Assembly (NCBI GenBank): GCA_003694385.1
Contig: RFKA01000061.1
Location: 1-5,327, forward strand
From: Candidatus Woesearchaeota archaeon
GTDB lineage: Archaea > Nanobdellota > Nanobdellia > Woesearchaeales > UBA525
DNA length: 5,327 nt
Direction: 5' to 3'
The number at the start of each line of letters is the position of its first letter. Positions within the stretch are counted from its first letter, which is position 1. The position numbers and the translations under genes are program-made. Below the pieces are notes generated by a model that worked only from the letters and a program-made list of their open reading frames with translations, ran no database searches and had not been told where the DNA came from. Below are positions 643-5,327 of this stretch, in pieces.

Positions 643-1188
643 ATGGAGGTGGATCCTGAACTCTCAGAAGTGAAACAGCTCCGCAAACGAGCAGGGCTCA
701 CGCAGCAGCAACTCGCGCAGGCCGCGGGCGTCTCGCAGAGTCTCATCGCGAAGATCGAGGCGGGCCACGTCGACCCGAGCTTCAGCGTCGGCAAGCGCAT
801 CCTCGCAGCCCTGAAGAGTTGTGAGCAAGAACAGGAACCAACTGCGAAAGAGCTCATGCAAACACACGTTGTGCAGTGTAAAAAAGAAGAGCCGCTCGCG
901 AGAGTCATCGCGCGCATGAAGAAGCACGGCATTAGCGCGGTGCCTGTTGTCGAGGACAAGCGCGTCGTCGGCCTCGTCAGCGAGCGCGGCATCATCGAGC
1001 AGCTCGGCTCCATCACCGCCACGACACGCGTCGCGGAGGTCATGAGTGACGCGCCACCTATCATTCCAGTGCAAACGCCGCGGAGCGTCCTCGCGAGTCT
1101 CCTCCAGCACTTTGGGCTTCTTATTGTTGGTGAGCGTGGCACGTGCAGGGGTGTCGTGACGAAGGCAGACCTCCTCGGCAAGCTGTGA
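643..1188 (+). CDS. XRE-family HTH regulator with two C-terminal CBS domains
   Basis: This is a predicted cytoplasmic DNA-binding regulator of 181 residues. Residues 9-58 form an XRE/Cro-type helix-turn-helix: RAGLTQQQLAQAAGVSQSLI followed by AKIEAG is the classic two-helix signature. Residues about 70-124 (MQTHVVQCKKEEPLARVIARM and on to AVPVVEDKRVVGLVSERGII) are a first CBS motif, and residues about 129-181 (RVAEVMSDAPPIIPVQTPRS to GVVTKADLLGKL) a second. CBS pairs typically bind adenine nucleotides or S-adenosylmethionine, so DNA binding may respond to energy or metabolite state; the ligand cannot be read from sequence. The architecture matches a group of archaeal regulators (COG3620-like). 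The frame is open upstream to base 379, but ATG 643 is chosen because it lies just before the HTH, 22 nt after a TATA-like box, and outside the preceding gene. It is complete, with its stop six bases before the next promoter. Confidence 0.9.
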   Translation: MEVDPELSEVKQLRKRAGLTQQQLAQAAGVSQSLIAKIEAGHVDPSFSVGKRILAALKSCEQEQEPTAKELMQTHVVQCKKEEPLARVIARMKKHGISAVPVVEDKRVVGLVSERGIIEQLGSITATTRVAEVMSDAPPIIPVQTPRSVLASLLQHFGLLIVGERGTCRGVVTKADLLGKL

Positions 1189-1234: not shown

Positions 1235-1678
1235 GTGAGTCTCTTAGAGCATCTGCCGTTCCACAAGAAACACGAAGAGCCGCCGGACTTCTCGAACGAC
1301 CCATTCGCCGACGAAGGATTCGCCAAAGAAGGGGTGGAAGACGGCATGGGGAAGGACCCGTTCGACGATGCGCAGGACCCGTTCGCTCACGAAGCCCCGT
1401 CAACTCCCGGACTAGGCAGTAATGCACCAGTTGACGCAGCAGATAATGAGCCGCCAGACCCCTTCGCAGGGCAGGGTGGGGCGCGCGCCTATGCGAAGCA
1501 GCTCGTGAGGGAAGCACAGCGGGAACAGCCGGCGGCGCAGACCGCGAGCAAGGCAACAGAGCTACAACTCATTCTCGAGCGCCTCGACACAATTAAGGCG
1601 GAGCTCGACAGCATCAAGCAGCGCATGTACCGCTTCGATCGCTTCATGGACAAGCAAGAACAGCGGAAGATGTGGTAG
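1235..1678 (+). CDS. Small acidic protein with four DPF motifs and a C-terminal coiled coil
   Basis: A 147-residue protein starting at GTG. The first two thirds are low-complexity, acidic and proline-rich, probably disordered, and carry Asp-Pro-Phe at residues 22-24, 41-43, 48-50 and 75-77, usually preceded by N, K, Q or P. The last third (about residues 108-140, LQLILERLDTIKAELDSIKQ and beyond) is a clean heptad coiled coil with hydrophobic positions I113, L117, I120, L124, I127, M131, F134 and M138. There is no signal peptide or transmembrane segment. The layout, a disordered tail with repeated short linear motifs attached to an oligomerising helix, suggests a scaffold or adaptor, but this is inference from architecture and I do not recognise a named family. 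It has its own TATA box and Shine-Dalgarno site, so it appears to be transcribed separately from the regulator upstream. Confidence that it is a real gene is high; function is unknown. Confidence 0.8.
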   Translation: MSLLEHLPFHKKHEEPPDFSNDPFADEGFAKEGVEDGMGKDPFDDAQDPFAHEAPSTPGLGSNAPVDAADNEPPDPFAGQGGARAYAKQLVREAQREQPAAQTASKATELQLILERLDTIKAELDSIKQRMYRFDRFMDKQEQRKMW

Positions 1679-1780: not shown

Positions 1781-1787
1781 TTATAAA
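1781..1787 (+). promoter_or_regulatory. TATA box for lspA
   Basis: TTATAAA in the 131-base gap before lspA ends 22 nt before the ATG at 1810. This predicts transcription starting at about 1807-1810, essentially at the start codon. The remainder of the gap (1679-1780) holds no gene that I can support; a 6-bp inverted repeat CCGTAG/CTACGG (1685-1690, 1770-1775) is probably chance. Confidence 0.65.
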
Positions 1788-1809: not shown

Positions 1810-2307
1810 ATGCGTCTCACCCCGCGAGCATTCCTCCCCTACGCAGGCCTCTTCATCGGCATCATCGCGCTCGACCAAGCAGTGAAGAACGTCTCGCGCG
1901 GCTTAGCGCTCGGCGAGCGCCACACACTCATCCCCAAACTCCTCGCATTCACACACGTCCAGAACACAGGCATCACGTTCGGCTTCCTACAGGGGAGCAA
2001 CGGCGCGGTCATCTGGCTCAGTATCTTCTTCCTCGGCATCCTCGTGTACTTCTTCGATTATTTCTCGACGAGGACGGAGCGCGTCCTCTACACGCTGCTC
2101 CTCGCAGGCATCATCGGGAACCTCATCGACCGGTTGGCGCAGGGCTTCGTCACTGACGTCTTCGACCTCACGGGCTGGCCGGGCATCTTCAACGTCGCGG
2201 ATAGCGCGCTCGTCATTGGCGTGTGCGGCATGCTCCTCCATGAAATCTACACAAGTACGCACGGCAAACGCGCTGCTCCTGCGGTTCCGCGACGAAGCAG
2301 TCCTTGA
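1810..2307 (+). CDS. lspA: Prolipoprotein signal peptidase (signal peptidase II)
   Basis: A membrane aspartyl protease that cuts signal peptides in front of the lipid-modified cysteine of lipoproteins. The 165 residues match the family's usual length, and all diagnostic motifs are present in order: LDQAVKN (D22, Q23, K26), QNTGITFGF (N52, G54, F57, G58), GNLIDR (N104, D107, R108) and FNVADSA (N128, D131). D107 and D131 correspond to the catalytic aspartate pair. Four membrane helices are visible at about residues 8-23, 65-82, 92-106 and 129-147. After the last helix a basic, proline-containing tail (GKRAAPAVPRRSSP) follows, and it is read over DNA that also encodes the next gene. ATG 1810 follows a TATA box by 22 nt. 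Recognisable LspA is classically bacterial, so in this archaeal context it is probably of bacterial origin by transfer (inference). A lipobox protein at 3849-4448 is a plausible substrate. Confidence 0.93.
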   Translation: MRLTPRAFLPYAGLFIGIIALDQAVKNVSRGLALGERHTLIPKLLAFTHVQNTGITFGFLQGSNGAVIWLSIFFLGILVYFFDYFSTRTERVLYTLLLAGIIGNLIDRLAQGFVTDVFDLTGWPGIFNVADSALVIGVCGMLLHEIYTSTHGKRAAPAVPRRSSP

Positions 2308-2632
2308 AGACCTCCTGAGCACTCACGACGTGCTCCTCGGCGACGCGTGGCGCGCCCACGCAACGCTCTGCGCGGACGAGTACTTCGCGAGCGGCGCGTA
2401 CCGTCAACAAGCAGGTCATTACTTTCCTGGCGAGTACGCGCTCTACGTCAACGGCACGCTTAGCGAGGAGGAAAGCGCCGTCACGCTCATGCATGAACTC
2501 CTCCACGCGTTCTGTGACGACTACGACCTCGCAACCGTCGTGAGTCACGAGGAGATTGAACGGGAAGCAGTCATCCTCGTCCACGATCACCCCGCACTTG
2601 TCGGGTTCGTGCGTGGCTATCTTGGCTGGTGA
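2240..2632 (+). CDS. Small HExxH zinc peptidase, ImmA/IrrE (M78)-like
   Basis: A 130-residue protein with a zinc-peptidase signature. GHYFPGEYALYVNGTLSEEE (residues 59-78) leads into TLMHELLHAF (82-91), where H85, E86 and H89 form HExxH, followed by HEEIEREA (103-110), where E107 or E109 can be the third zinc ligand. The order of a 'Y(V)N' strand, LSEEE, T-L-x-HELxH and EREA is that of the ImmA/IrrE (M78, DUF955) fold, whose members often cleave XRE-type repressors. The protein is soluble, with no signal peptide. The start is uncertain: ATG 2240 overlaps the end of lspA by 68 nt in another frame; TTG 2216 (8 residues longer) and GTG 2330 (23 bases after the lspA stop, 30 residues shorter) are alternatives. 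No Shine-Dalgarno site is seen at any of them, so translation may be coupled to lspA. The 3' end overlaps the convergent membrane-protein gene by 62 bp. Confidence 0.75.
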   Translation: MKSTQVRTANALLLRFRDEAVLEDLLSTHDVLLGDAWRAHATLCADEYFASGAYRQQAGHYFPGEYALYVNGTLSEEESAVTLMHELLHAFCDDYDLATVVSHEEIEREAVILVHDHPALVGFVRGYLGW

Positions 2633-3460: not shown

Positions 3461-3793
3461 TTAGAACTCGTCGAGGTCTTCGAGTGCGTCGAGGTGGCCG
3501 TTGTCACGCAGCCACTTCACCTGAACGGGGCGGTACTTGAAAATGATGTCGCCGCGCGTGTCACCCTCAAACTCCCAGGGCTCGACGAGGACGATGTCGC
3601 CGGGGCGCACCCAGAGGCGGCGCTTGAGCCGGCCGGGAATGCGGCAGTTGCGCGTCTTGCCGTCGAGACAACGGACGAGGCAGCGGCTCCCCCCGAGTCG
3701 TTGCTCGAGCACACCGAGGCTCTGGTCGCCGCGTGGAAGCTTGACGCGGGCGATGAGTTCCTCGTCAGTCAATTGGGGGCGCTTATATGCCAT
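3461..3793 (-). CDS. eif1A: Archaeal translation initiation factor 1A (aIF-1A)
   Basis: A 110-residue counterpart of eukaryotic eIF1A and bacterial IF1. It binds the small ribosomal subunit at the A site and assists initiator tRNA placement and start-codon selection. The whole protein follows the family: a short basic N-terminus, then an S1/OB-fold domain with RVKLPRGDQSLGVLEQRLGG (16-35), SRCLVRCLDGKTRNCRIPGR (36-55), LKRRLWVRPGDIVLVEPWEF (56-75) and GDIIFKYRPVQVKWLRDNGH (81-100). A short acidic tail follows (LDALEDLDEF). Family length is about 100-115 residues. ATG 3793 is chosen rather than the in-frame GTG 3802, because the TATA box ends only 15 nt before the GTG, which would fall upstream of the expected transcription start. 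The gene diverges from the lipoprotein gene, and the two appear to share a TATA box. This is the clearest evidence that the window is archaeal. Confidence 0.97.
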   Translation of the reverse strand: MAYKRPQLTDEELIARVKLPRGDQSLGVLEQRLGGSRCLVRCLDGKTRNCRIPGRLKRRLWVRPGDIVLVEPWEFEGDTRGDIIFKYRPVQVKWLRDNGHLDALEDLDEF

Positions 3794-3817
3794 CTCGGCC
3801 ACGACAACAACGTCGGC

Positions 3818-3848: not shown

Positions 3849-4448
3849 ATGCGTCGAGTAATCGGTTTCCTAGCCCTCGTGGTTATAGTTCTTGCTGCGT
3901 GCGCGCAAAAGCCTGATTTCTCCCGCGTCCCGGACGACTTCCGAGTCAGTTATGGGGAGTACGGCGTTGGTGGCGTCCGCGAAGCTATTCTAGAGGAGAA
4001 TCTCACGCTGAAAGCGTACTCGCTCGGTTATACAACGGTACGCACATACCCACTCTCACAGGAGGAGCGCGAACAGCTCTACGCTGCGATTGGCGAAGCC
4101 GGGTTCTTCTCGCTCGAGGATCATTACGAGAACACGCTCGTCTTGGACGGGACCGCTCAGCTGCTCACCGTCACGGCTGACGGCCTGACGAAGAGCGTGT
4201 TCGTGCGGAACACGACCGTGCCGGCATTCGCTCAGGTCGTCGGCAACCTCACAGCCATCCTGACGAAACGAGAGGACCCTTGGGGGCGGGTGACGATTGA
4301 GGAAGAGTACATGCAGTGCCTCCAGTGGCGCCTCGACTGCGCTGACAGCACGTCACCCATTTGTGCTACGCGACGAGCCCAGTGCGCAGAGATCGAGGAA
4401 CAGTACCTTCGTTTTTCCACAAAGAATTTTTCCACAAAGAATAAATAA
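3849..4448 (+). CDS. Lipobox-bearing secreted lipoprotein of unknown function
   Basis: A 199-residue protein with a textbook lipoprotein signal peptide: basic MRR, hydrophobic residues 4-16, then L15-A16-A17-C18, which would leave C18 as the lipidated first residue. The mature part has a compact probably beta-rich domain (about residues 30-140), with LSQEEREQLYAAIGEAGFFS (69-88) and a 'LLTVTADGLTKSVFVRN' strand pair. This arrangement, with a helix followed by GFF-S/L, is reminiscent of small bacterial lipoprotein domains such as DUF6438, but I do not claim membership. The C-terminal region has four cysteines spaced C157-x6-C164-x7-C172-x6-C179. The protein ends in a duplicated FSTKN pentapeptide encoded by a perfect 15-bp tandem repeat. 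ATG 3849 gives the signal peptide directly and is 23 nt from the TATA box. Lipidation would need Lgt-like and LspA activities; lspA is at 1810-2307. Confidence 0.85.
   Translation: MRRVIGFLALVVIVLAACAQKPDFSRVPDDFRVSYGEYGVGGVREAILEENLTLKAYSLGYTTVRTYPLSQEEREQLYAAIGEAGFFSLEDHYENTLVLDGTAQLLTVTADGLTKSVFVRNTTVPAFAQVVGNLTAILTKREDPWGRVTIEEEYMQCLQWRLDCADSTSPICATRRAQCAEIEEQYLRFSTKNFSTKNK
4412..4441 (+). repeat. Perfect 15-bp tandem duplication at the lipoprotein gene end
   Basis: TTTTTCCACAAAGAA occurs at 4412-4426 and again at 4427-4441 with no mismatch. Within the reading frame it encodes FSTKN twice. The unit is far more A/T-rich than its surroundings. The second copy runs into the TATA-like element of the RDD gene, so the duplication also changes the sequence just upstream of that promoter. 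Confidence 0.85.
4440..4447 (+). promoter_or_regulatory. TATA-like element for the RDD-sppA pair
   Basis: AATAAATA overlaps the TAA stop codon of the lipoprotein gene (4446-4448) and ends 22 nt before ATG 4470. This matches the local leaderless spacing and argues for ATG 4470 over the GTG at 4449, which lies upstream of the expected transcription start. Confidence 0.5.
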
Positions 4449-4469: not shown

Positions 4470-4928
4470 ATGGGCAAAGATATCGATGCGGTGCTCGCGC
4501 AATTGAACCTCCCCCAGCAGCGCGTCATGACGCGTCAAGCAGGGAGGGCGCGGCGCGTGCTCGCGTTCCTCGCCGATATCTTCATAGTAAATGCGTTCGT
4601 GCTGAGCCCGCTGAGCACAGTCGTACCTACGACGTTCACCCTCGGAGTAATCAGCAAAGAGTTGTACGCGGTGTTCACCGTGATGATGCTTATCTTCCTC
4701 GGGTACTTCTGGCTCCTCGAGTACGGGCTTGGGCAGACGCCGGGCCAGCTCCTCCTCGGGCTCGAGACGAGAGGAGTTACGTTCTGGCGCGGGCTTCTCC
4801 GGAATCTTCATTTCCTTCCCTTCATGCCCTTCCCATTCCTCTTACTCGTTGAGCCAATCGTGTTCTTCTTGAGCGGTGAGCGATTGCTCGCGCGCTGGAC
4901 AATGACAGAGACTATTGAGAGGCGGTAG
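4470..4928 (+). CDS. RDD-family membrane protein
   Basis: A 152-residue integral membrane protein. A soluble N-terminus (1-25) leads into RARRVLAFLADIFIV (26-40), the R...AF.xD signature that opens RDD domains. A second helix lies at about 66-84. LGQTPGQLLLGLETR (87-101) is the conserved T-x-G-x-x-LLGL loop, and a third helix lies at about 112-135. The final SGERLLARWTMTET (135-148) lines up with the usual 'L-x-D-R-x-x-x-T' end of the family, but has Ala where Asp is typical. The second characteristic aspartate is thus missing or moved. RDD proteins are poorly characterised; some have transport roles, so no substrate is assigned. GTG 4449 would add seven residues, but the promoter position favours ATG 4470. 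sppA begins 4 bases after the stop, so the two are probably one operon. Confidence 0.8.
   Translation: MGKDIDAVLAQLNLPQQRVMTRQAGRARRVLAFLADIFIVNAFVLSPLSTVVPTTFTLGVISKELYAVFTVMMLIFLGYFWLLEYGLGQTPGQLLLGLETRGVTFWRGLLRNLHFLPFMPFPFLLLVEPIVFFLSGERLLARWTMTETIERR
4917..4922 (+). promoter_or_regulatory. Shine-Dalgarno-like site for sppA
   Basis: GAGAGG lies inside the end of the RDD gene, 10 nt before ATG 4933. As the downstream gene of a tight pair, sppA would need such a site or coupling to the RDD gene, unlike the leaderless first genes here. Confidence 0.4.
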
Positions 4929-4932
4929 AATA

Positions 4933-5327
4933 ATGAAACAAACAAAAACGCAAGGCCTTGGGACGAAAGTCGCCCTTATCATCCTCGTCCTCTTCGGACT
5001 CGCAATCATCGCGAGCATCAGCGCAACCATCATCATGCTCTTTGGGAACGAGTACGAGCGCGGGAACATCGCCATCATCCCTCTCGAGGGTGTCATCGTG
5101 GCGGGCACGGAGACAGTATCAAGCGGGCTCATCACGAGTGACCGCGTCATCGATGACCTCGAGCGTGCCGAAGAAGATGATGGTGTACAGGGGATCATCC
5201 TCTTGATTAATAGTCCTGGTGGCAGCGCCGTCGCGAGCGATGAGATTGCAGCGAAGGTTTCCGCTCTTGAGAAGCCGGTCGCGGCAGTGATTCGTGAGGT
5301 GGGCGCGAGTGGCGCGTACTGGGTCGC
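4933..5327 (+). CDS. sppA: Signal peptide peptidase SppA, S49 family (3' truncated by window)
   Basis: A membrane-anchored serine protease that degrades signal peptides left in the membrane after secretion. About 131 N-terminal residues are present before the window ends. A short basic N-terminus (MKQTKTQGLGTK) is followed by one membrane helix (about 13-37), then GNIAIIPLEGVI (44-55), the standard first strand of the S49 fold. Next comes ILLINSPGGSAVASDEI (89-105), the near-invariant substrate-binding segment, and KPVAAVIREVGASGAYWVA (from 114). S126 in GASGAYW is the expected nucleophile. The general-base lysine lies in the missing part, so completeness of the active site cannot be checked. 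Length and motif order fit short, SppA-type single-domain enzymes as in Bacillus and archaea. It starts 4 bases after the RDD gene and probably shares its transcript. Along with LspA it suggests local grouping of signal-peptide handling functions. Confidence 0.93.
   Translation, partial: MKQTKTQGLGTKVALIILVLFGLAIIASISATIIMLFGNEYERGNIAIIPLEGVIVAGTETVSSGLITSDRVIDDLERAEEDDGVQGIILLINSPGGSAVASDEIAAKVSALEKPVAAVIREVGASGAYWV

Follow-up and report, generated by a model that had tools for sequence, protein, structure and literature searches.

Lipoprotein-processing enzymes of bacterial type, LspA and Lgt, in a Woesearchaeota genome and its phylum

Introduction

Three papers, of 2010, 2025 and 2026, state that bacterial lipoprotein enzymes, or Lgt in particular, are absent from archaea (PMC2945643; PMC12186497; PMC13251419), and one of them offers the differing membrane lipids as a reason (PMC12186497). 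According to the relevant passages of two of these papers, archaeal lipobox proteins bear a lipid at their N-terminal cysteine in the AliA/AliB system of Haloferax volcanii (PMC12186497; PMC13251419), and one passage calls AliA and AliB non-homologous to the bacterial enzymes (PMC13251419). Here we describe a gene for the lipoprotein signal peptidase LspA in Candidatus Woesearchaeota archaeon, together with the gene for Lgt, the enzyme acting before LspA, elsewhere in the same genome. The stretch of DNA that we analysed (hereafter the window) is an entire contig of 5,327 bp (C70; RFKA01000061.1 in assembly GCA_003694385.1), from a draft genome whose 130 contigs add up to 889,737 bp, with a completeness of 86.74% and a contamination of 0.18%. 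NCBI already annotates such genes, for example as 'prolipoprotein diacylglyceryl transferase [Candidatus Woesearchaeota archaeon]'. Among the open-licence papers listed by our searches, none dealt with these two enzymes in DPANN archaea or Woesearchaeota.

LspA and Lgt of the archaeon

Judged by family scores and conserved residues, the lspA open reading frame (ORF) of the window (Table 1) encodes a full-length LspA. It scores 99.4 bits against PF01252 (cut-off 25, E=2.6e-28) and 95.9 against TIGR00077 (cut-off 73.95), and three sequences in the PDB matched at E up to 1, every one of them a lipoprotein signal peptidase. The four helices and the beta-strand of the LspA fold are found as well. 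The structure paper on LspA of S. aureus gives, in the passages on its active site, a catalytic dyad of Asp118 and Asp136 and 14 highly conserved residues (PMC6952399). D116 and D131 of the window align with this dyad and D107 aligns with Asp109, while all 14 conserved residues listed in those passages are kept (D22, K26, N52, G54, G100, N104, D107, R108, V114, D116, F127, N128, A130, D131). A preliminary description of the window, made from its sequence, was therefore right that a bacterial-type LspA with intact sequence blocks is present. Yet it misnamed the catalytic pair as D107/D131, since by the same passages of the structure paper the pair is D116/D131 and D107 is another conserved residue. 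In our LspA alignment of 39 archaeal and 22 bacterial rows, D116 and D131 occur in every row, and D107 is found in 37 archaeal rows and in all bacterial ones. The TATA-like element described before the gene is present as a sequence (TTATAAA). At its 3' end, lspA is overlapped by ~68 bases by an IrrE-like (M78) ORF.

A search of the source genome for Lgt, as suggested in the preliminary description, was successful. The gene (E=4.8e-70) lies on a different short contig from lspA, and its product scores 234.4 against PF01790 (cut-off 24.9) and 200.4 against TIGR00544 (cut-off 118.9). For Lgt of E. coli, the passages on essential residues list Y26, H103, R143, N146, G154 and R239 as absolutely required, and G99, G142, G145, Y235 and R246 as also essential for viability (PMC13251419). 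All six residues listed as required are kept in the archaeal protein (Y21, H99, R139, N142, G150, R218), as are four of the five listed for viability; at the fifth, G145, the archaeal protein has an alanine (A141), which 32 of the 74 bacterial rows share. Lgt of several monoderm bacteria does not rescue E. coli depleted of its own enzyme, according to the same paper (PMC13251419). In the nearest relatives of this Lgt, the cysteines at two positions near an RHPSQ motif (C170 and C182 in P0058) hardly vary and possibly form a disulfide.

Occurrence in the phylum

We sampled 279 genomes of the phylum, of which 220 were of good quality, and 14 control genomes. LspA was found in 199 of the 279 genomes and Lgt in 207; among the 220 of good quality, the counts are 173 and 181, respectively. 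Both enzymes occurred in 189 genomes, LspA only in 10, Lgt only in 18 and neither in 62 (Fisher p=9e-35, a test that ignores kinship). Hence, the genome described here is no special case, which does not bear out the wording of the preliminary description. Ten of the controls matched in the LspA search and nine in the Lgt search, every one a bacterium, and the Lgt of B. subtilis was missed; absences of either enzyme in the phylum thus set lower bounds on presence. Neither enzyme matched in the four archaeal controls, Methanocaldococcus jannaschii, Haloferax volcanii, Sulfolobus acidocaldarius and Methanosarcina acetivorans. Because both Lgt and LspA are encoded in two thirds of the genomes sampled, the published absence of the bacterial lipoprotein enzymes from archaea does not, on this genomic evidence, hold for this phylum.

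Named organisms were found in several searches. A scan of named genomes with the Lgt alignment gave, as the two best among the matches listed, Nanoarchaeota archaeon Modern_marine.mb.57 (50% identity) and UBA9640 (45%). Four further loci among the 80 retained from those listed are archaeal by title, including two Candidatus Woesearchaeota (UBA10194, SI047_bin109), and the others are titled as bacterial or 'bacterium'. LspA was present in all 25 named genomes examined from these 80 loci (six archaea and 19 bacteria). In UBA10194, it sits on the contig and at the coordinates found for LspA of G054, a genome of the same order as ours, which makes it likely that this order includes a genome deposited as Woesearchaeota. 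In the protein search with Lgt, 10 of the 120 matches listed were organism-named, all of them Woesearchaeota, Nanoarchaeota or Pacearchaeota. The two closest matches in the protein search with LspA had 72% and 71% identity, and the sole organism-named matches were Bacillota (Pontibacillus 38%, Sediminibacillus 32%).

Predicted pathway and lipid donor

Very probably, secreted proteins receive a lipid from Lgt at their lipobox cysteine, and LspA next cleaves their signal peptide just before this residue, a prediction from sequence that builds on directly observed features: both genes with their conserved residues, how widely and how often together they occur across the phylum, and the gene order retained around lspA. 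In this scheme, proteins made with a lipobox signal peptide, for example the predicted lipoprotein of the window, would be exported by a general route, and a membrane phospholipid would supply the glycerol lipid that Lgt attaches to their cysteine thiol. LspA would then cleave immediately before the lipidated cysteine by means of D116 and D131. A lipid of two chains would be expected on the mature protein, because Lnt, the third enzyme of the bacterial pathway, gave no match in this genome, which is 86.74% complete. Of the complete bacterial-like pathway that had been envisaged earlier, the genome thus encodes Lgt, LspA and a few candidate lipobox proteins, with no match for Lnt.

As donor for Lgt, an ether phospholipid of archaeal type is likely: on contig C41, a CarS-like gene (E=4.4e-22) adjoins a CDP-alcohol transferase gene, and no PlsY was found in the genome. 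The same pair occurs in G304 and G145, two genomes of the same genus. In a set of 58 genomes, a CarS-like gene was found in 30 and PlsY in 2. Going further, the bacterial-type Lgt may have become adapted to archaeal membranes, such that archaeol, an isoprenoid ether lipid with the opposite glycerol stereoisomer, would be transferred to the lipobox cysteine before cleavage by LspA. Archaea would then have two lipoprotein systems, with that of the phylum being of long standing and without relation to AliA/AliB. We give this extended interpretation about an even chance.

An alternative explanation might be that the pathway is real but that the lipids come from a host or prey, possibly as bacterial phosphatidylglycerol, which differs from our interpretation in the donor only. 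GGGP (geranylgeranylglyceryl phosphate) synthase was not found in the genome, which leaves its ether-lipid pathway incomplete, nor was it found in four relatives of the same genus; it was above cut-off in 1 of the 58 genomes, while all four archaeal controls match. Moreover, a CarS-like gene occurs in only 30 of these 58 genomes while Lgt is common, and four active-site features of the E. coli-type Lgt are unchanged. Uptake of the donor lipid from a host is possible. In contrast, the CarS-like/CDP-alcohol transferase pair of this genome and its same-genus relatives suggests that ether phospholipids are built or remodelled, and PlsY is absent. On balance, a scavenged donor seems unlikely, but it is the strongest of the alternatives. 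Besides the missing GGGP synthase, two findings weigh against our interpretation of the pathway: the CarS-like search also matches some bacterial controls, and this Lgt has N where E stands in 33 of the 38 archaeal rows and in all 74 bacterial ones, a position that we take to be that of E. coli E243. Among the 58 genomes, an early step of ether-lipid synthesis (GGGP synthase) is mostly missing or unrecognised, despite the CarS-like genes in 30 of them.

Lipobox proteins as candidate substrates

We scanned 40 of the 130 contigs of the genome for lipobox proteins, one of which was masked (L210, all N). The regular expression is crude, as it missed the lipobox of L321 that was seen by eye, and our ORF calling retains spurious ORFs. 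Textbook cases were chosen by eye: 2 of 3 matches in this genome, 6 of 6 in G004 and G044, 6 of 6 at the survey loci, 0 of 1 at the loci of named archaea, and 3 of 5 in genomes with neither enzyme. Other settings of the scan gave identical matches in the five sets covered.

The lipobox protein with an L-A-A-C motif that had been reported in the window is present, with the motif ending at Cys18. A second textbook case, MKLLAICIIGVLILTAC, was found on contig C12 (L076), in line with the suggestion that other lipobox proteins be sought in the genome. The window lipoprotein matches the Pfam family DUF6438 at 18.8 bits, under the cut-off of 30, and its search in the protein database gave one near-identical protein only. 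Among the 58 genomes, homologues were detected in G134 (29% identity, E=2.5e-10) and G311 (27%, E=3.4e-4), and the lipobox cysteine is kept in both of these distant homologues (FGC and SGC). In the relatives, a lipobox ORF was found at 6 of 30 lgt loci versus 0 of 30 lspA loci (p=0.024). Five of these six ORFs, from five relatives, follow lgt on the same strand at a distance of no more than 700 bp. Genomes with both enzymes had 14 textbook cases in 1,145 ORFs, versus 3 in 1,073 ORFs of genomes with neither (p=0.013).

These data bear on a second alternative, namely that the two proteins retain fold and active site but act in a different role, for example on other membrane proteins or on lipids that they would cut or modify, and that the lipobox matches are mostly due to chance. 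Several results point in this direction and weigh against the predicted lipidation. Lipobox proteins seem few, with two textbook cases in 259,857 bp of the genome's own sequence. Their enrichment is weak overall, declining to 8 of 823 ORFs (p=0.066) when the 60 survey loci are removed, and 80 further ORFs of genomes with both enzymes, which stayed outside the enrichment tests, had no match. All three textbook cases of the genomes with neither enzyme occur in G032 (L242, L249) and G100 (L257), and these may reflect missed enzymes, another system or chance. Furthermore, 28 of the 279 genomes have one enzyme only (the 10 with LspA and 18 with Lgt), although many of these genomes are incomplete and the Lgt search is known to miss B. 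subtilis. Another job for the enzymes is nevertheless improbable, in view of the 14 conserved residues of LspA and the six required residues of Lgt, all kept, the strong joint occurrence of the two enzymes, the lipobox genes directly downstream of lgt in five relatives and the cysteine kept between distant homologues.

The preliminary description had also placed SppA nearby. An SppA-like ORF is indeed present, but the gene is incomplete and remains under the full-length cut-offs (61.8 against TIGR00706, versus 155.45), and it says little about lipoproteins.

Evolutionary origin and provenance

Transfer from bacteria had been proposed for this locus. Bacterial-type LspA and Lgt are both present; a transfer would be compatible with our trees but does not follow from them. 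In an Lgt tree with narrow bacterial sampling (every second of the 74 bacterial rows, i.e., 37), the 37 archaeal rows form one side of a branch (Shimodaira–Hasegawa-like approximate likelihood ratio test, SH-aLRT, 94), with one genome counted twice (L051 and L089). When six plasmid-record rows of other bacteria were included, together with every third bacterial row (25) and without L035, L036, L037, L051 and L062, the archaeal rows fell between two bacterial groups with two label changes, in a tree whose bootstrap had not settled. The bacterial Lgt loci were found, among the matches listed, by patterns built on archaeal sequences, so that their sampling is biased. The LspA tree has four label changes and four starred branches among 56 inner ones; some archaeal and bacterial rows are mixed, and the named Nanoarchaeota row L183 falls weakly with two bacterial rows. 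As judged from these trees, the phylum may have gained the pathway in a single event or in several, or may have inherited it.

It is unlikely that this lineage, and no other, recently acquired lspA (and lgt) from bacteria in one transfer. The LspA protein search, in which all organism-named matches are Bacillota, and the poorly supported, partly mixed LspA tree would suit such an event. However, both enzymes are spread across the phylum, Lgt of this genome groups with same-genus and Nanoarchaeota rows (100/98 and 100/91), and the 10 organism-named among the 120 Lgt matches listed are all archaea. We therefore consider an isolated recent transfer very improbable, and rejected it as unsupported given the phylum-wide spread and the grouping of Lgt.

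The neighbourhood of lspA is shared with relatives. G145 keeps the order SppA, RDD, LspA, orf3, HTH-CBS, with other genes interspersed, and in G083, a genome of the same family, SppA, aIF-1A and LspA are in close vicinity of one another. Similarly, lgt is near HisRS in both G145 and our genome (G000). The contig has a GC content of 0.583; in the GC comparison, the all-N contig L210, one of the 40 own contigs, distorts mean and spread. Cut into three 1.7-kb pieces, C70 is nearer to the tetranucleotide profile of the genome than 61%, 71% and 97% of other such pieces. A break in composition between lspA and aIF-1A, for which the preliminary description had advised a check, was seen neither in GC nor in tetranucleotides. 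The other finding that it had named as a refutation, a genome lacking Lgt and further lipobox proteins, did not occur either. The aIF-1A gene that it cited against bacterial contamination is present: the gene product scores 116.8 against NF003084 (curated cut-off 91) and 98.7 against TIGR00523, slightly under the 102.9 of that family, and aIF-1A stands beside LspA in G083 too.

Contamination is unlikely, because the lspA neighbourhood is kept in G145 and partly in G083 and there is no composition break. The draft state of the genome (130 contigs) and the separate short contigs of lspA and lgt might suggest that bacterial genes were binned or joined into an archaeal genome, but such a chimera is hardly credible and was rejected on the shared gene order near lspA and lgt, on a composition within the range of the genome, and on the 189 genomes with both enzymes, two of which (G004 and G077) carry them on one contig of 1.30 and 1.16 Mb, respectively.

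A sigma-70 family protein is encoded at 6901–7848 (+) of L063 (G000:C81), between an ORF without Pfam match and HisRS (Sigma70_r2 E=6.4e-14, Sigma70_r4 E=6.6e-15). Sigma70_r2 matches were found in 24 of 58 relatives (23 above cut-off) and in 0 of 4 archaeal controls.

Features of the window

The features of the window are collected in Table 1.

Table 1. Annotated features of the window, in order of position
Feature	Position	Strand	Remarks
HTH-CBS (helix-turn-helix, CBS) regulator	643..1188	+	PF01381, PF00571; E=1.1e-59 to G145 ORF near LspA
ORF without Pfam match	1235..1678	+	E=3e-11 to G145 ORF near LspA
TTATAAA, TATA-box-like sequence upstream of lspA	1781..1787	+	Read from sequence; promoter role only putative
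lspA, lipoprotein signal peptidase (signal peptidase II)	1810..2307	+	165 aa; dyad D116/D131
IrrE-like (M78) protein	2240..2632	+	PF06114, 27 bits vs 22 (scanned from 2216); start codon picked by eye
aIF-1A, archaeal translation initiation factor 1A	3461..3802	-	NF003084, PF01176; beside LspA in G083
Predicted lipoprotein, possible substrate	3849..4448	+	199 aa; N-terminus MRRVIGFLALVVIVLAAC
Lipobox L-A-A-C of predicted lipoprotein	3891..3902	+	Cys18 at 3900-3902; picked by lipobox scan
RDD-family membrane protein	4470..4928	+	PF06271, E=3.4e-9; adjoins SppA in G145 too
SppA-like signal peptide peptidase	4933..5327	+	Gene broken off at contig end; homologues beside LspA in G145, G083

Comparison with known systems

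The enzyme families themselves are known; what appears new is where they occur and, we infer, which lipid they handle. The phylum offers a direct test of whether Lgt and LspA accept archaeal ether lipids. Through the enzymes, small archaea would have a predicted means of anchoring proteins at their surface, and lipoprotein prediction becomes meaningful for the small archaea of this phylum.

Compared to the three-step bacterial pathway, the third enzyme, Lnt (TIGR00546), is above cut-off in 4 of the 279 genomes of the phylum and without a match in the present one. The four full-length Lnt-like genes above the curated cut-off are in G127:C69, G096:C32, G271:C1 and G104:C4, that of G127 reading through a stop. 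Lnt-like genes in these four genomes would complete the bacterial three-step pathway in archaea.

LspA of the window shares family score (PF01252, TIGR00077), the 14 conserved residues, the fold of four helices and a beta-strand, and length with bacterial LspA (structures 6ryo and 5dir). It differs from the solved bacterial enzymes in its identity of ~30% and in its position in an archaeal phylum, and its substrate would presumably bear an archaeal lipid. Likewise, Lgt agrees with bacterial Lgt (PF01790, TIGR00544; structure 5azb) in family score, the six required residues and fold. In contrast to the bacterial enzyme, it has N for the conserved E and A for G145, and its donor would likely not be phosphatidylglycerol.

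As described in the relevant passages on Haloferax volcanii, AliA/AliB likewise lead to a lipid on the N-terminal cysteine of lipobox proteins, whereas the system to which the window belongs would use the bacterial enzyme families for this purpose.
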